37,996 nt of DNA, taken from a bacterium. GTDB lineage: Bacteria; Patescibacteriota; Minisyncoccia; Phycocordibacterales; Phycocordibacteraceae. The stretch spans positions 1 through 37,996 of the forward strand of contig JAKBHL010000008.1 in NCBI GenBank assembly GCA_021836725.1, read 5' to 3'. A program made the translations under genes and the position numbers. This document shows positions 2,466 through 37,990 of the stretch, one piece after another. A model generated the notes under the pieces. The model made no database searches. It was given only the letters and a program-made list of their open reading frames with translations, and had not been told where the DNA came from. The first letter of the stretch is position 1, and each line of letters opens with the position of its first letter.

Positions 2466-3314
2466 ATGAAAGACGAAGAATGGCTTCTCGAAGAAAAATA
2501 TGGCGCGAAGAAGACTGAGGAATTCGAAGCGGATAGACGCCGGCTCGCCCGCGGCGAGCCGGTCGCATACGTCATCGGCTGGCAGCCATTTCTCGGTTTG
2601 AAGATATTCCTCGACTCCCGCCCGCTCATCCCCCGCCCCGAGACCGAGTGGTGGACAGAGCAACTTCTTTCTTCCGTCTGTGTCGCACAGGCGAACCCGC
2701 CTGAGGAACGTACGGAGCGTGACGGCGCGAGTAAGAGCAATTTTTCAGCAGAAAAATATGCGATTCCGAAGGCGGGTTCGCCTGTGCGGCCACCAACTTT
2801 CTTGGACCTCTGCGCGGGCTCGGGCGCCATCGGTTGTGCGGCACTCGCGCGATTGCCGGACGCGCAAGTGTATTTTGGAGAACGTGATCCCGCGCACGAG
2901 ACGACCATCAGGAAAAACATACGCGAAAATGGCCTCGATGCCCTGCGTGCGGATATCCGCATCGGCGACCTTTTCGCCCCCTTCTCCGAGGGCATGCGAT
3001 TTGATGTCATAGCCGCGAATCCTCCCTATATCCCGGAGGGCCGCATGCTTCCGGAAAGTGTTGCTGCATGGGAACCGGAATCCGCGCTGCGCGCAGGATC
3101 CGACGGTCTCTCGCTCATCCGCCGCATCGCGGATGAGCTTCCGACACGACTCGAGCGCAGCGGCGCGGCGTGGGTTGAGTGCGACAGCTCCTCGATAGTA
3201 GCAGCACGGGAATTATTCTTGAAACGAGGGTTCATTGTCGAGATACGCACCGATCAGTACGGTGCTCCACGCGTTCTCGTATGTAGGCATACGCGGGCTC
3301 GTTCGGCGCACTAA
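2466..3314 (+). CDS. prmC: Peptide chain release factor N5-glutamine methyltransferase
   Basis: LARGEPVAYVIGWQPFLGL, FLDLCAGSGAIGCAAL, ANPPYIPEG (NPPY) motifs; carries an in-frame palindromic insert. Confidence 0.95.
   Translation: MKDEEWLLEEKYGAKKTEEFEADRRRLARGEPVAYVIGWQPFLGLKIFLDSRPLIPRPETEWWTEQLLSSVCVAQANPPEERTERDGASKSNFSAEKYAIPKAGSPVRPPTFLDLCAGSGAIGCAALARLPDAQVYFGERDPAHETTIRKNIRENGLDALRADIRIGDLFAPFSEGMRFDVIAANPPYIPEGRMLPESVAAWEPESALRAGSDGLSLIRRIADELPTRLERSGAAWVECDSSSIVAARELFLKRGFIVEIRTDQYGAPRVLVCRHTRARSAH
2540..2562 (+). repeat. Perfect hairpin within the prmC coding region
   Basis: ccggctcgcc / cgc / ggcgagccgg; encodes the family-conserved LARGEPV segment. Confidence 0.7.
2684..2788 (+). 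repeat. Palindromic element copy A, in frame in prmC (105 nt)
   Basis: Perfect 19-bp arms cgcacaggcgaacccgcct / aggcgggttcgcctgtgcg; core CGGAGCGTGACGGCGCGAGTAAGAGCAATTTTTCAGCAGAAAAATATGCG shared with copies at 10266 and 21316. Confidence 0.9.
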
Positions 3315-10265: not shown

Positions 10266-10361
10266 GGTATGCGACAGAAAGGAGTACGCCGTCTTTTTGT
10301 GCTCAAAAAGCGGCTCGTACTCGCGTCGTCACGCTCCGTAAGCCTCTTTCTGCCGCATACC
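10266..10361 (-). repeat. Palindromic element copy C, downstream of rpoD
   Basis: Imperfect arms ggtatgcgacagaaag / ctttctgccgcatacc; minus-strand core TACGGAGCGTGACGACGCGAGTACGAGCCGCTTTTTGAGCACAAAAAGACGGCGTACTC. Confidence 0.85.
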
Positions 10362-21315: not shown

Positions 21316-21420
21316 CGGAAGGCGGGGTAATTTTTGAGGCTCTCGGAGCGCGTCGGCGCGAGAGCGAGCCGATTTTTCAGCAGAAAAATACGGCGTACTC
21401 AAAAATTACCCCGCCTTCCG
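21316..21420 (+). repeat. Palindromic element copy B, between the KH-protein stop and trmD start (105 nt)
   Basis: Perfect 23-bp arms cggaaggcggggtaatttttgag / ctcaaaaattaccccgccttccg; core CGGAGCGCGTCGGCGCGAGAGCGAGCCGATTTTTCAGCAGAAAAATACGGCGTA. Confidence 0.95.
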
Positions 21421-24278: not shown

Positions 24279-26486
24279 TCATTTCGCCACGGCGACCGCT
24301 TCGTCAAATTTGACTGAGAGCAGCTTCGATACGCCGTCGCCGCCCATGGTGACGCCATAGAGGATACCTGCGCGGCTCATGGTCTCGCGGTTATGCGTAA
24401 TGACGATGAGCTGCGATTTCTGCGCGAGGTTCTCGATCATGTCGCCGTAGCGCCGGCTATTCGCTTCATCGAGGGCCGCATCGGTCTCATCCAGTATCAA
24501 AAATGGCGGCGGGTTCACCTGGCTCATGGCGAAAATGAGGGCGATGCTCGTGAGCGCGCGCTCTCCGCCTGAAAGCTGCATGAGGGAGCGTACTTTTTTC
24601 TTCGGCAGGTTGACGACGATCTCTATGCCGGGCCTCTCCTTTTCTTTGGGCATTCCCTCGTCGAGGGATTCTTCAAGATCCTCGCCTTCGGGCTCGACCT
24701 CCGGCTCTTCAAGAGCGAGCCGCGCGCCGCCGCCGCCGAACATGAGCGCGAAATATTCGCCAAGCGAAGCGTTGACCTGAGCGAGTCCGGCGGTGAAATG
24801 TTTCGCGAGCTCCGTTTCAAGATCGACGATGAGCGCGCGCAGGCCCGCGGCTGACGCGGCGAGATCGTCGAGCTCGCGCGCGAGGAATGCCTCGCGCTCC
24901 GATACTTCCTTATGCTCCTGTCGGATGTCCTCGCCGGTTCCTCCCGCTTCCTCAAGACGGATTTTTATGCGTTCGAGAGAGCGTTTGCGTTCTTCTTGCA
25001 CGCGCCGCTCTTCGGCGGGAAGCGCGGGCAGAGGCTCGTAGGAAAGCACGGCGGCGCCGGCAAGCGCGAGTGCTTCCGCCTTGTCGCGCTCGAGCTCTTC
25101 GGTGAGGAAACCGAGTGCGCGTTCGCGCGCGTCGCTTTTTGCGACCATGCTTTCCTCATGCGCTTTTGCTTGCGCGAGATCGAGTATGCGGCGATGCAGC
25201 TCCTTGCCGGTCTCGTCGTGCGCGGTCAGATCTTCGCGCGCGCGCGCGAGCGCCGATTTCGCCCGTTCGAGCTCCTCGGCGAGCGCGGAATCTTTACCGA
25301 GGAGCTCCGTACGTTCGTTCTCGAGCGCGTATGCGGCGTGCTCTTCTTCCGCGAGCAGGTCGTCGGCCGGCGCGATGAAACGGTCGACGAACGCGCGTAC
25401 CGCTCCGTGAAGCGCGTGTAATGCGGCACGAGCGGCTTCGAGGGTGTCTGCACGCACCGCCTGTTTTTCAGTCTCTTCCGCAAGAGCGCTGAGGGCTTCG
25501 CGCGGCACTTTTGCGTAGGGATCATTCACGACCTTGACGCTGCGCTGCTTGGCGGCGGCAAGCGATCCTTCGACGCGTCCGATCTCGCGCGAGAGGACGC
25601 TGCGCGTGCCCAGAAGACGTTCGACGTCCGTCTCCGCCTTACGTACCGTTTCGAGACGTTTCGCGCCTTCGGCGTCGCCTGTCGCCCGCTCCTCGATACG
25701 GGAAAGTTCTGCGGTCGCATCTGCAAGCCGTGCAGCCGCGTCTTTCTTTTCTTCGGCGATGGCGCGCTTCTCTTGCTCGAGAAAAGCGTCCTCGATCGCA
25801 AAATACGTCTGGCAAGCGCTCGTAAGGGTATCCCGGAGCGCCTGCGCGCGCTCGAGTTTCTTTACCTGGCTTTCGAGGAAGCGCAGATGTGGCGCAAGTT
25901 CCCGCCGGAGCGAATTCACCTGGGCGATATTGTCCTCGGTTTTCAGGAGTTTCTTCTCCGCTTCCTGCTTTTTGAATTCGTACACCCTGAGGCCGAGCGC
26001 GTCCTCGAGCATCGCGCGCCGGTCGCGCGGCGAGGCGAGCAATATCCGATCCGCCTCGCCTTGGGAAATGATATGGTGGCTCGTCTCGCCGATGTTTGCG
26101 CCGGCCAAAAGTTCCTCGATATCGCGCAAGCGCACGCGCGAACCGTTGATGGAGTATTCGCTCGTGCCGTCGCGGAAAGCCGCGCGCTCTATGATCACTT
26201 CATCGAAATCGATCTTGAAGATGCGGCGGGAGTTGTCAAACACGATGGCGACCGACGCGCGCATCAGGCGGGGCATTGAGTGAGAACCGCCCCAAATGAG
26301 ATCTTCGGCGCGCTTGCCGCGCATGCTTTTCATCGACTGTTCGCCGAGCGCGAAGCGAAACGCCTCGGCGACATTGCTCTTGCCGGAACCATTCGGTCCC
26401 ACGATCGCCGTGGTCACACTCGAAAAATTCAAGACGGTTTTCTTGGCAAAGGATTTGAAACCGACGATTTCGAGCCGTTTGAGCAT
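24279..26486 (-). CDS. smc: SMC-family ATPase, short form with no recognisable hinge
   Basis: MLKRLEIVGFKSFAKKTVLNFSSVTTAIVGPNGSGKSNVAEAFRFALGEQ; LSGGERALTSIALIFAMSQVNPPPFLILDETDAALDEANSRRY; only 735 aa. Confidence 0.9.
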   Translation of the reverse strand: MLKRLEIVGFKSFAKKTVLNFSSVTTAIVGPNGSGKSNVAEAFRFALGEQSMKSMRGKRAEDLIWGGSHSMPRLMRASVAIVFDNSRRIFKIDFDEVIIERAAFRDGTSEYSINGSRVRLRDIEELLAGANIGETSHHIISQGEADRILLASPRDRRAMLEDALGLRVYEFKKQEAEKKLLKTEDNIAQVNSLRRELAPHLRFLESQVKKLERAQALRDTLTSACQTYFAIEDAFLEQEKRAIAEEKKDAAARLADATAELSRIEERATGDAEGAKRLETVRKAETDVERLLGTRSVLSREIGRVEGSLAAAKQRSVKVVNDPYAKVPREALSALAEETEKQAVRADTLEAARAALHALHGAVRAFVDRFIAPADDLLAEEEHAAYALENERTELLGKDSALAEELERAKSALARAREDLTAHDETGKELHRRILDLAQAKAHEESMVAKSDARERALGFLTEELERDKAEALALAGAAVLSYEPLPALPAEERRVQEERKRSLERIKIRLEEAGGTGEDIRQEHKEVSEREAFLARELDDLAASAAGLRALIVDLETELAKHFTAGLAQVNASLGEYFALMFGGGGARLALEEPEVEPEGEDLEESLDEGMPKEKERPGIEIVVNLPKKKVRSLMQLSGGERALTSIALIFAMSQVNPPPFLILDETDAALDEANSRRYGDMIENLAQKSQLIVITHNRETMSRAGILYGVTMGGDGVSKLLSVKFDEAVAVAK

Positions 26487-26514
26487 CGCTCAAAGTATAA
26501 CGCATAAAAAGAGA

Positions 26515-26537
26515 CAGCCCCCACAAAGTGAGGGCTG
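26515..26537 (-). terminator. Intrinsic terminator of the first small-ORF cassette
   Basis: cagccc(c)cac / aaa / gtg(a)gggctg; T-rich tract on the minus strand (tctcttttt). Confidence 0.75.
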
Positions 26538-26552
26538 AGTTCCGATCCGTCA

Positions 26553-26768
26553 TCACCAGAGCGGCGGCAGCGAATCGGAAAAGATTCGCCACGTGAGGGC
26601 CGAGAAACCGACAGCGACCGTCACGACGGCGAACGGGAAAGAAACGGGCATCGTTATCACGATGACCAGGCAAGCAAACGCCGTAGCGAATGCGATTGCG
26701 TCCAGTACGCGGACAACCGCGGAAGGCAAAATCTTCCGTATGCGACGAACGATCTTCTTCACGCTCAT
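26553..26768 (-). CDS. Small two-TM protein, 71 aa, cassette 1
   Basis: MSVKKIVRRIRKILPSAVVRVLDAIAFATAFACLVIVITMPVSFPFAVVTVAVGFSALTWRIFSDSLPPLW with aggagg RBS. Confidence 0.75.
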   Translation of the reverse strand: MSVKKIVRRIRKILPSAVVRVLDAIAFATAFACLVIVITMPVSFPFAVVTVAVGFSALTWRIFSDSLPPLW

Positions 26769-26827
26769 GACTTACTCTCCTCCTGTAAAATCGAAAACGG
26801 TATGAATCGTTAGGGCTTCTGCGCGAA

Positions 26828-26856
26828 GTACTACGCCTACCAGCCCATCTTGTCAA
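26828..26856 (-). promoter_or_regulatory. Promoter for cassette 1 supplied by the duplicated rnc end
   Basis: Minus strand TTGACA (26851-26856), 17-nt spacer, TAGTAC (26828-26833). Confidence 0.5.
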
Positions 26857-26932
26857 GCCCCGCTTCTGCGGGCTTTCTGCTCCGCTTCCTGCTTGCTCTA
26901 CCCCTCCCCGCGGGCTATTTCCTTTTCGCCGA
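26836..26932 (-). pseudogene. Partial duplicate of the rnc 3' end
   Basis: About 97-nt near-identical copy of 27419-27514, with a 1-nt insertion and CAG to TAG. Confidence 0.9.
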
Positions 26933-27071
26933 GCGCGAAGCGAAACGCCTCGGCGACATTGCTCTTGCCGGAACCGTTCGGTCCCACGATCGCCGTGGTC
27001 ACACTCGAAAAATTCAAGACGGTTTTCTTGGCAAAGGATTTGAAACCGACGATTTCGAGCCGTTTGAGCAT
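26898..27071 (-). pseudogene. Chimeric 57-codon ORF: smc codons 1-49 fused in frame to an rnc C-terminal fragment
   Basis: MLKRLEIVGFKSFAKKTVLNFSSVTTAIVGPNGSGKSNVAEAFRFALGE|KEIARGEG*; 26925-27071 matches 26340-26486 except one base; junction at shared ttcgccga. Confidence 0.9.
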
Positions 27072-27095
27072 TTCTGTTTATTGTACCAAACGAAA

Positions 27096-27117
27096 ACGCC
27101 CTCCCGAAGGAAGGCGT
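27096..27117 (-). terminator. Intrinsic terminator of the second small-ORF cassette
   Basis: acgcc(c)tcc / cga(a)... / gga(a)ggcgt hairpin; TTTTCG on the minus strand. Confidence 0.7.
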
Positions 27118-27160
27118 TGCCAATTAGTAGCGTGGCCAATTACCAAATGAGCGGATGGGA

Positions 27161-27352
27161 TTACCACCACCCAATTGATGAACACCTGAACTCGTAGATC
27201 AAGGCCGCAATGCCCACAACAGAAGCAATGACGATGGTCACCATTGCAACCGGAATGACGCCAGCGCCAATAGCTAGTATCACACCCATCAAACAAAGGG
27301 CCACAATCACAGGCGCATACGCGTTTAACACAAAAACAATTAACTTGCGCAT
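27161..27352 (-). CDS. Small two-TM protein, 63 aa, cassette 2
   Basis: MRKLIVFVLNAYAPVIVALCLMGVILAIGAGVIPVAMVTIVIASVVGIAALIYEFRCSSIGWW; aggaga RBS upstream. Confidence 0.75.
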   Translation of the reverse strand: MRKLIVFVLNAYAPVIVALCLMGVILAIGAGVIPVAMVTIVIASVVGIAALIYEFRCSSIGWW

Positions 27353-27410
27353 ATCTGTTCTCCTAGAAAGAGTCAGAATCGGTTCAAAACCTCTGAACCA
27401 CCCGCTTGAA

Positions 27411-27439
27411 ATCATATACCTACCAGCCCATCTTGTCAA
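27411..27439 (-). promoter_or_regulatory. Promoter for cassette 2 embedded in the rnc 3' end
   Basis: Minus strand TTGACA within the last rnc codons (GLDKMGW), 17-nt spacer, TATGAT just past the stop. Confidence 0.8.
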
Positions 27440-28109
27440 GCCCCGCTTCTGCGGCTTTCTGCTCCGCTTCCTGCTTGCTCTGCCCCTCCCCGCGGGCTAT
27501 TTCCTTTTCGCCGATAAAGACGCCGACGGTGAAGAGTTTCGCGTGATCGGGGCCGGTTTCGGAGAGCGTTTGGTACCAGGGCGTCTCGTTCCGTTTCTCT
27601 TGTGCGGCCTCCTGGAAGCGGCTTTTCGCATCCTGATAAGAACGTTTCGCGATGACATCATCGATTTTTCCGTACAGTTGTTTCGCGATGAACGATTCCG
27701 CAACGACATATCCCTGATCCAGATACAGCGCTCCGATAATCGCCTCGAAGGCGTCCGCCAGGATGACGTCGCGCGCGCGTCCGGTGTCTTTCGCTTCGCC
27801 CTTCGAGAGCAGCAGGAAGCCGCTCAGCCCGAGCGCTTGCGCGCTTTCGGAAAGCGAGACGGTGTTGACGAGCGCGGCGCGGTAGCTTGTGAGTTCGCCC
27901 TCGCTTTTGGCCGGGAATTTCCTGAAAAGGAAGTCGGTCACGGCAAGCTCGAGAACCGCGTCGCCGAGGAATTCGATCCTCTCGTTGTGGTTGCCCGCAT
28001 ATCCGCGATGCTCATTCAGGTACGAACGGTGCGTCACGGCTTCGATAAGAAGGCCGGGATCATTGAACGTGACGCCGAGTGCGGAGGCGAGCGAATCGAA
28101 ATCAGGCAT
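27420..28109 (-). CDS. rnc: Ribonuclease III
   Basis: NERIEFLGDAVLELAVTDFLF signature and C-terminal dsRBD (GEGQSKQEAEQKAAEAGLDKM). Confidence 0.97.
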   Translation of the reverse strand: MPDFDSLASALGVTFNDPGLLIEAVTHRSYLNEHRGYAGNHNERIEFLGDAVLELAVTDFLFRKFPAKSEGELTSYRAALVNTVSLSESAQALGLSGFLLLSKGEAKDTGRARDVILADAFEAIIGALYLDQGYVVAESFIAKQLYGKIDDVIAKRSYQDAKSRFQEAAQEKRNETPWYQTLSETGPDHAKLFTVGVFIGEKEIARGEGQSKQEAEQKAAEAGLDKMGW

Positions 28110-30543: not shown

Positions 30544-33500
30544 ATGGCCTCGCGCTTCGTCCATCTCCATACGCACAGCCATTATTCGTTCCTTCAGGCG
30601 CTGCCGAAAATCGATGAACTGGTCGAAAAGGCGGAGAAGGAGGGCATGAACGCGCTCGCGCTCACTGACGCCGGCAATATGCACGGAGCAATCGAATTCT
30701 ACAAAGCCGCGACCAAAGCGGGCATAAAACCGATCCTTGGCGTCGACGCGTATCTCGCCCCGCGCTCGCTCTTCGAGCGGGACCGCAGCGACGGCGCGAA
30801 ACGCTCCCGCATCGTGCTGCTCGCTGAAAACAATGAGGGGTATGAGAATCTCCTCGCTCTCGTCACCGCCTCGTGGACGGAAGGATTCTTTGAGCGCCCG
30901 CGGATGGACAAGGAGCTTTTGCGCGCTCACGCGCGCGGAGTCATCGCCCTTCTCCCCTCTTTTTCGGGAGATGTGTCTCAGCTGCTGCGCGAGGGCGACC
31001 CGCAGGGCGCGGCGGCCGCGCTCGCCGAATTCAAGGGCATATTCGGCGCTGAAAATGTCTTCCTTGAAATCACGCATCATCCGCGCGTGCGGGGGCACGA
31101 GGCGCTGATGCACAAGATCGGCGCGCTCGCGCACACAAGCTCGACGCCGCTGGTCGCCCAGCATGATGTGTATTACCTTGAACCGGACGATCGCGAAGCG
31201 ACCGAGATACTGCGCCGTATCGCCCACGGCGAACGCGGCCGAAACGAAGACGAGGATTTTTCTTTCATCAGCGAGGAGCGCGCGCTCGACCTCTTTAAGG
31301 ATACTCTGGAAGCCGTCGACGCCTCCCGCGCGATCGCGGAGCGCTGCAACGTGTCGTTTGAGCTCGGGAAATGGACCTTCCCCGCCGTGCCCGTTTCCGC
31401 CGGCTTTGCGACGCACGACGAGGAGTTGCGGGCAAAAGCGTATGCGGGCATCGAGGAGCGCGCGCTCGTGAAAACGAAAGAAGTCACGGACCGCATCGAA
31501 TACGAGCTCGCGATCATCATCAACAAGGGTTTTGCGGTGTACTACCTCATCGTCGCCGACTTGCTTGCGTTCGCGCGCACGGAGCGCATCCTCACCACGA
31601 CGCGCGGCTCGGCGGCCGGCTCGCTCGTCGCATACCTCATCGGCATCACGAACGTCAATCCGCTGTTCTATAAGCTCCCTTTTGAACGATTCCTGAATCC
31701 CGAACGTCCGAAGGCGCCGGATATCGACATGGACATGGCCGATAACCGGCGCGATGAGATGATCGCATACACGAAAAAAAAGTACGGCGAAGATCACGTC
31801 GCACAGATAGGCACGTTCGGCACGATGATGGCGCGCGCGGCGGTGCGCGATGTGGCGCGCGCGCTCGGTCACTCCTATACCGTCGGCGACCGCATCGCAA
31901 AACTCATTCCGATGGGTTCGCAGGGTTTCCCGATGACCATCGATCGCGCTCTCGAGCTCGAACCGGACCTGAAGACGCTCTATGACGAGGATGACGAGGC
32001 GCGGGAGATACTCGACCTTGGGAAACGCATCGAAGGGTGCGTGCGGCACGTCGGCGTCCACGCGGCGGGAGTGGTCGTCGCACCGACTCCGCTCGTGCGG
32101 TGGACCCCGCTCCAACCCGACCCCAAGGGGACGGGAAAACTCATCACGCAGTACGATATGTATTCCATCACCGACGAGTACGGCGGCGTCGGCCTCCTGA
32201 AGTTCGACTTCCTCGGCATCAAGAACCTTGCCATCCTCGCCGATGCGGTCGCTCAGGTGGAGAAGGCGCGCGGCATCAAAATCGACATCGAGAATATCCC
32301 GATCGATGACGCGAAAACGTACGAGATGCTCGCGCGCGGCGAAACAGAAGGAGTGTTCCAGCTGAACGGCTCGGGCATGACGCGCTGGCTCAAAGAGCTC
32401 AAACCGTCAACTATTCACGACATCAACGCGATGGTCGCGCTCTACCGCCCAGGACCGATGGAAACGATCCCGAACTACATCGAGCGCAAGCACAACCCGA
32501 GATTGATCCGCTTCGTCGATCCGCGCATGAAGGAGTACCTCGAGGCATCCTATGGCCTGTTGGTCTACCAAGACGACGTGCTCCTCACCGCGATAAAACT
32601 CGCCGGCTATTCCTGGCTTGGAGCGGATGCGCTCCGGAAAGCGATGGGAAAGAAGATCCCGAAAGTGATGTTAGCCGAGAAGGAAAAATTGCTCAGGGGA
32701 TTCGTAGAATACGGAAAGCTTTCGCCGGAAAAAGCGGAGAAGCTCTGGTCGCTCATCGAACCTTTTGCCGCATACGGTTTCAACAAAGCGCACGCGGCGA
32801 GCTACGGAAAAGTCGCATACCAGACCGCCTACATGAAAGCGAATTATCCCGTCGAATACCTGACGGCCCTCCTCACCGCGGACTCGGGCGATACCGATTC
32901 CATCGCCGTCTTCGTCGCGGAAGCGAAGCGTATGACTATTCCCGTCTTGCCGCCGGACATAAACGAGAGCGGGAGTGATTTTACGGCCATTCACGCTTCG
33001 CATCCTTCAAATGCCGTCCCGAACGATTTTCCGAACGCCATCCGTTTCGGCCTTTCATCGATCAAGAATTTCGGCGACGGGATTTCGGAAGCGATCATCG
33101 CCGAACGGGAGGCGCGCGGCCCTTTCCGTTCGCTCTCCGATTTCCTTTCTCGCATCGGCTCAAAAAACCTCAATCGCAAATCGCTCGAATCGCTCATCAA
33201 GTGCGGCGCGCTCGATTCGATAAGCCCCTCTGAAGGCGGCCGCGGCGCGCTGCTCGCAAGCATCGAGACGCTGCTCACTTTCCACAAAGAGGCGACCGCC
33301 GCCGCGCCGCAGGATTCCCTTTTCGGCACGCTCAATGCGCCGCCGCTTTCGATTCCCGCCGGAAAACCGGTCTCGCTCCTCGACAAACTCTCATGGGAGA
33401 AAGAATTGCTCGGTATTTACGTAAGCGGCCACCCGCTCGATGCGCACGGCGCGCTGGCTGCGAAAGCGAAGCTTTCGATCTCAAAGATCAAGGAAGAACC

Positions 33501-33753
33501 GCGCGCGGGAATGCCGGTCATATTGCCGGTCCTTGTCCTCGTCGTGCGCGCGATCCTCACTAAAAGCGGCGAGAAGATGGTATTTGTTACTCTCGAAGAT
33601 ATGACCGATTCCATCGAAGCGGTCGTCTTCCCCCGGCTCTTCAAGGAACATGCAAACGCGCTTGCTCCGGGCGCGTGCCTGCTGGTGAAAGGGAAAGTCT
33701 CGATCAGAAACGGCGAACCCTCGATCGCGATCGATGACATAAAGCCGCTCTGA
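30544..33753 (+). CDS. dnaE: DNA polymerase III alpha subunit
   Basis: PHP start FVHLHTHSHYSFL; PDIDMDMADNRRDEMI; YRPGPMETIPNYIERKH; C-terminal OB domain. Confidence 0.98.
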   Translation: MASRFVHLHTHSHYSFLQALPKIDELVEKAEKEGMNALALTDAGNMHGAIEFYKAATKAGIKPILGVDAYLAPRSLFERDRSDGAKRSRIVLLAENNEGYENLLALVTASWTEGFFERPRMDKELLRAHARGVIALLPSFSGDVSQLLREGDPQGAAAALAEFKGIFGAENVFLEITHHPRVRGHEALMHKIGALAHTSSTPLVAQHDVYYLEPDDREATEILRRIAHGERGRNEDEDFSFISEERALDLFKDTLEAVDASRAIAERCNVSFELGKWTFPAVPVSAGFATHDEELRAKAYAGIEERALVKTKEVTDRIEYELAIIINKGFAVYYLIVADLLAFARTERILTTTRGSAAGSLVAYLIGITNVNPLFYKLPFERFLNPERPKAPDIDMDMADNRRDEMIAYTKKKYGEDHVAQIGTFGTMMARAAVRDVARALGHSYTVGDRIAKLIPMGSQGFPMTIDRALELEPDLKTLYDEDDEAREILDLGKRIEGCVRHVGVHAAGVVVAPTPLVRWTPLQPDPKGTGKLITQYDMYSITDEYGGVGLLKFDFLGIKNLAILADAVAQVEKARGIKIDIENIPIDDAKTYEMLARGETEGVFQLNGSGMTRWLKELKPSTIHDINAMVALYRPGPMETIPNYIERKHNPRLIRFVDPRMKEYLEASYGLLVYQDDVLLTAIKLAGYSWLGADALRKAMGKKIPKVMLAEKEKLLRGFVEYGKLSPEKAEKLWSLIEPFAAYGFNKAHAASYGKVAYQTAYMKANYPVEYLTALLTADSGDTDSIAVFVAEAKRMTIPVLPPDINESGSDFTAIHASHPSNAVPNDFPNAIRFGLSSIKNFGDGISEAIIAEREARGPFRSLSDFLSRIGSKNLNRKSLESLIKCGALDSISPSEGGRGALLASIETLLTFHKEATAAAPQDSLFGTLNAPPLSIPAGKPVSLLDKLSWEKELLGIYVSGHPLDAHGALAAKAKLSISKIKEEPRAGMPVILPVLVLVVRAILTKSGEKMVFVTLEDMTDSIEAVVFPRLFKEHANALAPGACLLVKGKVSIRNGEPSIAIDDIKPL

Positions 33754-35548: not shown

Positions 35549-37990
35549 TCACGCGCCGAGCGCGGCGAGCGCGCGGGCAAGCGCAAGCTTCGCGCCGGTT
35601 ATCCCCGCCGAATAGCTTGAGTCAATCGCCGTGGCGAGTGCGGCGACGAGCTGTTCGAGATGCGGCGTGGTAAGGCGCGCCGTCAGGCGGCTTATGCCGG
35701 CATCGCAAGCGGTCCCGTCGATGCGCGCGCGGTATACGTCGTCAAGGAGGCAGACGGCGTCAAAGAGCAGCCGTTCCGGCTTCCCTCCCCCGCGCACGTA
35801 TTCCCGCAGTCCGGCAAATACCGCGGTACGATCGCCTTCGACGAGCGCCAAGACAAAACCCCGCACCTGCGGCGCTGCACCGGCTTCCGGCGCGCTCTCC
35901 TTCGCGACTGTCTCGACACGCTCGCCGATCGGTTCGACGTTTTCATATATGGATTCGACATTCTGCGTCTTCACGGCACGATCGACGACTGGCGCGTGAG
36001 TCTGATGCGAAAGGCCTTTCACGATATCCTCTATGGAGAGCGCGCCGTTATGTGCGAAAGATTTGAAACCCTCATAGGCGGAATACCCGCGCGATGCTTG
36101 AGGCGTCTCGGGACGCGGGGGCGCGATTGCCACGGGCGCTACGGTGTCCGCCGGTTTCTGCACGGTGTTGAGCGTCGCGGAAATCTTTTCTCCGAAGCGA
36201 CGTGCGCGGCCGTAGGCAAACGGCACGGCGCCGAAGAGGATGAGATAGGCAAGCGCGAGCGACCAGGCGACAAGTGCAAACCAGTAGAGCGTCGTCCCGA
36301 CGGGTCCGAGATCGAGGCCGGTATAAGGTATCTGCGAAAGGTACAGATATGCGAGCGGTTGCGTGCCCGCATGAGGAAGCGCTGAAAGTGTGATGACGGG
36401 CGGGGGTGGCCCGCCGCCTCCGCCGCAGTTGCTGGTGCACCCGCCGCTACCGCCTGTCACAACAAGCGTTGCGGTACAGGTGAGCGTCTGGCCGGTTTGC
36501 GCATGAAAGGTTCCCGTATAGGTATAACTACCGACTGTTGCCGGGGAGACGATGATTGAGCCGGGCGAGCTTGTCGCGGTCGCAATGCCGTTGCTGATGT
36601 CGACATTTGAGATTCCGCTGCCGCCCCAGGCAAGCGTAGCCGAGCCGCCGGTGGTGTAGCTTGTCGGCGAGACGGTGAGCGAGCAGGTTGGGCCGCCGCC
36701 TCCGCCGCCTCCGCCGTTCACTGAAACAGCCGCGGAACACGTTGCGGTATCTCCGGACGGACTCACGACCGTACCGGTGAATGTGGTATCGGCCGTAATC
36801 GCTCCCGAGCGTATCGATCCGCCGACGGCGGGCGATACGGAACCGATCCCGTGATCGATGGTGAACGTATCGGCATGTGTCGTTGTCCAGGTGAGTGTCG
36901 TGTAGTCGCCGGTACTCACGCTCGTCGGCGAAGCGGTGAGCGTGCAGGTGGGGGCGGAGGGCGGAGGCGGGGTCGAGGTGACTGTCACGGTAGCGGCGCA
37001 GTGGACGGTGCCGCCGGAACCGGTCGCGGTGCCGGTGTAGGTGGTCGTTGTCGGCGGAGAAACGGACTTTGAACCGGAAGCAACCGGTATAACCGGACCG
37101 ATACTTTGATCAATTGAAAACGAAGTGGCATTGGTTGTCGTCCAGCTGAGCGTCGAGGAGCCGCCCGTCTGGATTGCGGTCGGAGAAGCGCTGAGCGTGC
37201 AGGTGGGAGCAGCGGGCGGGGGCGGGGTTGAGGTGACCGTCACGCTCGCGGCGCAGTGGACGGTGCCGCCGGGACCGGTGGCGGTGCCGGTGTAGGTGAT
37301 GGTCGCGGTCGGCGAGACAGACGTCGAGCCGGCGGCGACCGGCGCGAGAGAGCCGATATCCTGATTGATCGAAAATGCCGAAGCGTTAGTTGTCGTCCAG
37401 CTGAGCGTCGAGGAGCCGCCCGTCTGGATTGCGGTCGGAGAAGCGCTGAGCGTGCAGGTGGGAGCTGTGGGAGGCGGAGCAACGGTTACTGCCGCCGCAC
37501 ACGTCGTTTCTCCGCCCGGACCTTTCGCGGTCAAAGTATAGTTTGTCGTCGTAACGGCAAAAATCAGTTTCGCCCCGGAATTCACCGGTGTGACCGAGCC
37601 GACGCCGTTATCTATACTCGTTGACGTCGCGCCGGTCGTTGTCCATGAGAGCGTGGTCAAGCCGCCTCCATACGGGAGCGAAGTCGGATTTGCCTTGAGC
37701 GTGCAGGTGGGGGCGGGGGGCGGAGCCACGGTAACGATGGTCTGACACTGCGTCTGACCGCCGGCACCCGAGACCGTCATTGTAAACTGCGTTGTTATGG
37801 ACTCGGTGACGCCTTGCGAACCGGATGAGCTTGCCGGAATCCATCCTGAGGTAACAGTACCTGCTGTGCCGTTTGCATCGCTACTTTGGATGAGCATATC
37901 CGAAGCCGCGCTCGTGGTCCATGAGAGAACCGTCGAGCCGCCTCCATACGGGAGCGTAGATGGGCTGACAGAAAGAGTGCACGTCGGCAC
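35549..37990 (-). CDS. Large surface protein with Ig-like/PKD-like tandem repeats, TM segment and cytoplasmic domain (probably continues beyond the window)
   Basis: Six repeats starting PTC(T/S)L...; TM TLYWFALVAWSLALAYLILFGAVPF; C-terminal helical domain ...LLFDAVCLLDDVYRARIDGT...SSYSAGITGAKLALARALAALGA. Confidence 0.85.
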   Translation of the reverse strand: MPTCTLSVSPSTLPYGGGSTVLSWTTSAASDMLIQSSDANGTAGTVTSGWIPASSSGSQGVTESITTQFTMTVSGAGGQTQCQTIVTVAPPPAPTCTLKANPTSLPYGGGLTTLSWTTTGATSTSIDNGVGSVTPVNSGAKLIFAVTTTNYTLTAKGPGGETTCAAAVTVAPPPTAPTCTLSASPTAIQTGGSSTLSWTTTNASAFSINQDIGSLAPVAAGSTSVSPTATITYTGTATGPGGTVHCAASVTVTSTPPPPAAPTCTLSASPTAIQTGGSSTLSWTTTNATSFSIDQSIGPVIPVASGSKSVSPPTTTTYTGTATGSGGTVHCAATVTVTSTPPPPSAPTCTLTASPTSVSTGDYTTLTWTTTHADTFTIDHGIGSVSPAVGGSIRSGAITADTTFTGTVVSPSGDTATCSAAVSVNGGGGGGGGPTCSLTVSPTSYTTGGSATLAWGGSGISNVDISNGIATATSSPGSIIVSPATVGSYTYTGTFHAQTGQTLTCTATLVVTGGSGGCTSNCGGGGGPPPPVITLSALPHAGTQPLAYLYLSQIPYTGLDLGPVGTTLYWFALVAWSLALAYLILFGAVPFAYGRARRFGEKISATLNTVQKPADTVAPVAIAPPRPETPQASRGYSAYEGFKSFAHNGALSIEDIVKGLSHQTHAPVVDRAVKTQNVESIYENVEPIGERVETVAKESAPEAGAAPQVRGFVLALVEGDRTAVFAGLREYVRGGGKPERLLFDAVCLLDDVYRARIDGTACDAGISRLTARLTTPHLEQLVAALATAIDSSYSAGITGAKLALARALAALGA
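36930..37480 (-). repeat. Nucleotide-level tandem repeats (about 260-bp period) encoding Ig-like units
   Basis: cagctgagcgtcgaggagccgcccgtctggattgcggtcggagaagcgctgagcgtgcaggtgggagc occurs near 37143 and again near 37400. Confidence 0.85.

Follow-up and report, generated by a model that had tools for sequence, protein, structure and literature searches.

The prmC locus and its palindromic insert

The window, by which we mean the whole 37,996-nt stretch of DNA analysed here, is one entire contig of a 616-kb assembly that is 98.9% complete. The gene of interest is prmC (2466–3314, plus strand), recognised by its open frame, by TIGR03534 and by an AlphaFold model. Its product is a PrmC/HemK release factor N5-glutamine methyltransferase, for which TIGR03534 is the best of the family profiles (E 6e-50, below the equivalog cut-off), and the named relatives of the protein are mainly from Candidatus Kaiserbacteria and other Parcubacteria. 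Within the gene sits a palindromic element of 105 nt, equivalent to 35 codons (2684–2788, plus strand), flanked by LIPRPETEWWTEQLL on one side and FLDLCAGSGAIG on the other. The left outer arm (CGCACAGGCGAACCCGCCT; 2684–2702, plus strand) and the right outer arm (AGGCGGGTTCGCCTGTGCG; 2770–2788, plus strand) are perfect 19-bp complements of one another at every position, as the initial annotation of this DNA had described. Its further claim that the element preserves the prmC reading frame also holds, the frame being open throughout from 2466 to 3314. Folded as single-stranded DNA, the element gives a z-score of -9.65, and none of 200 shuffled sequences folds equally well.

The AlphaFold model of PrmC has a mean pLDDT of 88.9 and a methyltransferase-like order of alpha and beta elements. 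Residues approximately 77–110, corresponding to the insert, are without regular secondary structure and have a pLDDT of about 55. The predicted structure thus shows the insert as a low-confidence unstructured loop, with the fold intact.

The same annotation reported that the core of the element recurs at 10266–10361 and 21316–21420. Both of these copies are real and the inner core is common to all three, but the outer arms are unrelated among them, the left arm differing from copy to copy. The second copy (10266–10361, minus strand; model match 10285–10343) is intergenic and belongs to a long-arm group that we refer to as family A, and the third (21316–21420, plus strand) is also intergenic and has perfect 23-bp arms that are unique to it.

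A conserved core of two hairpins

The conserved core is about 58 nt in length and consists of two adjacent hairpins; in prmC it spans 2708–2765 (plus strand), where covariance model R1 matches with 76.6 bits. In hairpin P2 (TAC-GGA-GCGT-GACG-GCGC-GA-GTA; 2711–2733, plus strand) a 4-bp stem is capped by a GACG loop and adjoins an NNA/GA internal loop; in hairpin P3 (GCA-ATTTTTC-AGCA-GAAAAAT-A-TGC; 2737–2761, plus strand) the stem has a single bulged A and is capped by an AGCA loop. Both hairpins covary in two alignments, A1 comprising 32 core copies and A2 comprising 33 distant copies found with the model. Pairing is maintained in 96.5% of the cells of A1, with compensatory change at 15 of the 17 pairs and two-sided changes outnumbering one-sided changes by 111 to 2; for A2 the values are 98.8%, 16 of the 17 pairs and 170 to 3. 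These pairing percentages are inflated, because the copies of A1 were picked with a pattern that requires pairing and the model itself guided the alignment of A2. G-T pairs were permitted both in the P2 pattern and in the model, so the near absence of G-U is less biased. Pairing in the core is nearly purely Watson-Crick, which indicates either pairing at the level of DNA or templated correction, and suggests, by inference, that the core acts as a DNA hairpin and not as an RNA.

Copies of the core are dispersed. The covariance-model scan proposed with the initial annotation does yield further copies, with R1 finding 52 in the source genome (designated G000; BLASTN finds approximately 34 in its 616 kb) and locating copies in 70 of the 106 genomes of the same family and in 39 of 380 genomes sampled from the phylum, representing 30 of 313 genera. 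A count of perfect inverted repeats with arms of at least 14 nt and spacers of at most 70 nt gave 43 over 249 kb of sequence from these genomes, compared with none in shuffled copies. It should be borne in mind that these are metagenome assemblies, that the E-values of the model are rough and that there are no protein data.

Several known kinds of element were considered for the core and discarded. A known Rfam RNA is ruled out, as neither the window nor the core at the loci of relatives scored above the curated threshold of any family. Carriage by viruses found no support, two exact core patterns giving no matches in viral contigs. The core is not an IS200/IS605 end, since tnpA loci with a readable gene lack it at their ends; a type-2 palindrome lies near one of them. 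TIGR arrays were set aside as a reading because the core copies are dispersed singles, a judgement limited to the portion of the TIGR source available to us.

Insertion hot spots in prmC and dnaE

PrmC was located in 99 of the 106 same-family genomes, and 30 of the proteins were aligned. The residues of the insert are not common to all of them. Two relatives (L059 and L063) have only a short linker from which these residues are missing, and dozens of other members of the genus have approximately 0–42 nt separating the conserved blocks that flank the insert. Most of the 30 aligned relatives have inserts of differing types, every one of which is read through, and the palindromes found at this same linker have different centres, including the window core, a GGTAAGACTTGGCCTAGCGGCCCGGAGCGC type, further types and simple palindromes. 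The prmC of G069 (L040) retains a mere remnant of the window core, followed by another palindrome. Because close relatives either lack an insert or have a different palindrome, we regard the linker as an insertion hot spot and rule out an ancestral PrmC loop.

Other palindromes of this linker deserve a brief description. A second type, centred on GTAAGACTTGGCCTAGCGGCCCGGAGCGC, is in frame in six species (loci L043, L045, L048, L053, L055 and L060) and has covarying arms. Simple REP-like palindromes, once doubled, are in frame at three further loci (L061, which is the prmC of G071, L062 and L064). In two genomes a RAYT-like gene lies 1–3 kb from prmC (G001 C2:147317-149194 and G036 C2:35960-39577).

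The second hot spot is dnaE, which the window contains in its empty form (30544–33753, plus strand; linker 32995–33033): the blocks that match relatives stop at 32994 and resume at 33034, leaving 39 nt between them. Core copies within long open frames of other species are found chiefly in dnaE, between PPDVNESG and IRFGLSSIKNFGDG, and the region homologous to these insert sites has a family match to DNA polymerase III alpha. Such inserts occur in at least seven relatives (G089, G071, G048, G069, G063 and G034, plus G001, where the orientation is reversed); all are stop-free when read through, and more than one reading frame is used. The likeness to the in-frame behaviour of Rickettsia palindromic elements (RPEs), put forward in the initial annotation for prmC alone, is therefore supported by a second host gene. 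Palindromic repeats in dnaE and in repair genes have already been recorded for other bacteria (PMC3733652).

Variable arms, some of which match their surroundings

About 25 copies, those of family A, have common arms; the remaining copies have unique arms that are often 20–29 bp in length and perfect. Over 101 copies the arm complementarity score averages 16.0, compared with 6.0 for shuffled flanks, whose maximum is 10. Differences between orthologous arms are mirrored. In the 21316 copy, which is also occupied in G037, a collinear relative with approximately 90% identity to G000, 6 of 17 left-arm positions differ between the two genomes, and 5 of the 6 are mirrored in the right arm. For the prmC copy 4 of 6 left-arm differences between G000 and G036 are mirrored, and for type-3 copies in prmC the figures are 3 of 3 and 2 of 4.

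The origin of some arms can be traced. In three PrmC relatives (L038, L046 and L057) the conserved codons for WWTEQLM themselves form the left arm, and the right arm, situated just before FLDL, is their inverse; in L050 the arms similarly derive from the conserved EQL/EML codon stretch and its inverse. The core is also found downstream of tRNA genes, both in distant Patescibacteria and in one local sub-group, and is there followed by a copy of the 3′ end of that same tRNA. This copy is 15–25 nt long, typically 21 nt (C56–A76), starts at C56 in the T-loop and mostly ends at CCA, and the tRNA types concerned include Arg, Gly, Phe, Gln, Tyr and Ser. To the left of the core is a partial inverse comprising at least the first 7–9 nt of the tRNA copy. 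A direct copy of at least 10 nt from the nearest upstream tRNA was present in 13 of the 38 copies tested. One G000 copy, beside tRNA-Met, has the same design and is missing in G037. Apart from these tRNA contexts, a third copy of the arm is almost never found within 400 nt. From such sequence comparisons the outer arms appear to have been copied from the surrounding host DNA.

A separate family, f65 (L205, L202, L203, L204 and L207), has the core with common short arms, TTGTAAAATTA and TAATTTTACAA, and in this respect parallels family A.

Recent and nested insertions

Family-A copies of G000 are missing from the collinear sites of G037, so that recent insertions can be observed directly against empty sites. 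At one clean site G037 is empty and reads GTTAGTACTAG|TGA, and G000 has approximately 153 nt inserted at TACTAG|TGA with no target duplication. CTAG precedes the insertion here but not at the other sites, which are also empty in G037 although less tidy; in the region of the 10266 copy about 200 nt are missing from G037. Insertions are also nested. The prmC copy of G037 contains an extra 57-nt in-frame element inside P2, and another G000 copy has a similar element inside P3.

Tandem core units were also seen, of 131 bp in L210 (G299 C43) and 116 bp in L191 (G018 C47), and also in L142. The tandem unit of L210 and L142 includes a tRNA 3′ end.

A model for the element and its alternatives

We propose that this is probably a dispersed non-coding palindromic mini-element in which the two-hairpin core spreads and the arms are mostly inverted copies of host DNA made by template switching, although no enzyme that moves the core has been found. 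In this model the conserved spreading unit would be the core of about 58 nt, forming the apex of a longer hairpin. The core would fold within single-stranded DNA, either on the lagging strand or in a gap, and the growing strand could then snap back, copy its own flank and rejoin the normal template. Such snap-back copying would create, extend and keep repairing a near-perfect palindrome. An insertion within a gene would persist only if it was in frame, free of stops and placed in a surface loop that tolerates it, for instance the PrmC linker preceding the SAM-binding motif or a DnaE loop, and would then be translated. Template switching at hairpins is documented in general (PMC8794818); as the cause of these arms it is our inference, as is the neutral or selfish status of the element. 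Three observations sit uneasily with this proposal: no intermediate and no mobilising enzyme was found; family A, with its common arms and fixed outer end, behaves like an ordinary MITE and not like a host-copied element; and the window prmC copy has arms of its own that cannot be traced to host codons. A broader form of the proposal is possible but remains tentative, namely that a phylum-wide core builds its arms from each target, captures the last 21 nt of tRNAs, spreads through host replication without a dedicated transposase and is a source of in-frame insertions.

Unique complementary arms would likewise result if the core inserted into palindromes that already existed, and the nested insertions into loops indicate that such events occur. 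The core could then be a small transposable element with a preference for landing in hairpin loops that were already there, its arms being older palindromes. Suitable sites are abundant, as these genomes have many simple perfect hairpins with spacers of 0–6 nt; the targets would be terminators, REP palindromes and tRNA T-arms, the loop of the T-arm being the junction seen at tRNA genes, and REP dimers within palindromes are known in several bacteria (PMC3733652). However, arms that consist of conserved codons and their inverse, together with mirrored changes at multiple sites, require copying during or after insertion, and the tRNA cases need both a duplicated 3′ end and an inverse, a combination that plain insertion into a loop would not give. 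We therefore consider this explanation unlikely as an account of the arms. Arm complementarity could also be maintained if selection acted on an RNA hairpin, and a non-mobile structured RNA (a terminator, processing signal or small RNA) would fit the position of most copies 3′ of genes and beside tRNAs as well as the strong covariation. It does not sit well with copies inside the coding frames of prmC and dnaE, with the lack of a consistent orientation to neighbouring genes among the copies inspected, with the scarcity of G-U pairs and the lack of any Rfam match or with presence and absence that differ among close relatives, and we hold it to be very improbable.

The remaining alternatives supply an enzyme. 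Mobilisation of a REP/REPIN-like element by a RAYT (Y1 HUH) transposase is suggested by the presence of Y1 proteins in 67 of the 106 family genomes, by their association with the core at family level (odds ratio 4.0, p 0.001) and by the one clean site, where the insertion follows CTAG and the target is not duplicated. Over the phylum the association is absent (20/39 versus 158/341, p 0.61), four near-complete genomes with 7–10 core copies have no Y1 match (G084, G236, G020 and G377), and the four RAYT neighbourhoods inspected are flanked by other short simple palindromes without the core; we have rejected RAYT as the mobiliser on the missing phylum-level association and leave this reading only a slim chance. 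A retroelement-like process, with tRNA 3′ ends as template up to C56 of the T-loop, would account for the points at which the tRNA copies begin and mostly end, and the left arm resembles a primer-binding site, with a TGG start in several copies. Against this, G000 has no reverse transcriptase, the presence of the enzyme does not track the core across the phylum (17/39 versus 116/341, p 0.29) and the tandem unit of L210 runs past CCA. Reverse transcriptase was rejected as mobiliser on the first two of these points, and the process seems to us barely credible. Eleven core-bearing genomes of the phylum sample lack both Y1/RAYT and reverse transcriptase.

Relationship to known palindromic elements

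RPEs are palindromes of approximately 100–150 nt that are scattered through a small genome and occur in frame, and are translated, in unrelated essential genes (PMC10969869). The element described here resembles them in its length of 105 nt and its 52 dispersed copies, and in its in-frame insertion in unrelated essential protein genes, prmC and dnaE. It differs in having no sequence conserved over its whole length, the arms of type-B copies being unique and only family A sharing arms, and also in its conserved two-hairpin core, host-copied-looking arms, tRNA-adjacent copies and occurrence in a different phylum. In-frame palindromic repeats are also known outside Rickettsia, among the CGTC and GTAG REPs, and the CGTC-tagged REPs include RPE-4, RPE-6 and Neisseria dRS3 (PMC3733652). 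With the CGTC REPs the element shares a short stem starting with AT, a 4-nt loop (AGCA here, the criterion being 4–5 nt), the lack of a dedicated transposase, intragenic copies in DNA replication and repair genes including dnaE, and dimers that sometimes lie within larger palindromes. However, CGTC is expected at the end of an 8–9 bp stem, and in A1 it is found there in 1 of 32 copies, GCAT in 17 and CCGT in 6; moreover GACG is here the loop of a second hairpin, and the core has its two hairpins fixed together as one unit. Behaviour like that of RPEs and CGTC REPs is thus supported, and membership of either group is not, because the ends proved not to be conserved and most copies lack the CGTC tag at the end of the stem.

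Like GTAG REPs and REPINs, the element is palindromic, high in copy number and mostly intergenic, and RAYTs are present in these genomes. The design is nevertheless the reverse of a REPIN, with a conserved centre and variable arms; a phylum-wide link to Y1 is missing, and in none of the four neighbourhoods does the RAYT gene have this repeat on its flanks. It differs from MITEs in that type-B copies lack conserved terminal repeats, and no target duplication was present at the one clean family-A site. In its perfect local inverted copies, multi-base compensatory changes and few G-U pairs it resembles hairpins generated by template switching (quasipalindrome correction; PMC8794818), with the difference that the same mobile core is here at the inferred switch point at many loci. 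The element is a new family of unusual design, having a conserved centre and apparently host-copied arms.

Previously, in-frame palindromic insertions had been described chiefly in Rickettsia and in certain REP-rich bacteria. The core bears on the question of how palindromic elements without a transposase multiply, and because a single core is shared across the phylum, with recent, nested and coding insertions and arms that can be matched to their host source, it can be tested directly where the palindromes come from and what part template switching plays. The relatives also provide a natural series in which forms of PrmC and DnaE that have an insert can be set beside forms that lack one.

Other repeats

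Repeats of other kinds were seen in these genomes. RAYT-like Y1 genes (L133, at G000 C13:13952-14173, L134, L135 and L136) are accompanied by the lineage-specific palindromes CCTAAGATGTCATCTTAGGA, TTAAATGTTTAACATTTAA and TACAAGGTTCCACCTTGTA. In the window, two 255-nt tandem repeats that are 81% alike (36924–37433) lie within a large minus-strand open reading frame (35549–37990), and the stretch 26337–27514 contains direct repeats, approximately 585 nt apart, that are almost the same (over 150 nt at 99% and over 62 nt at 98%).
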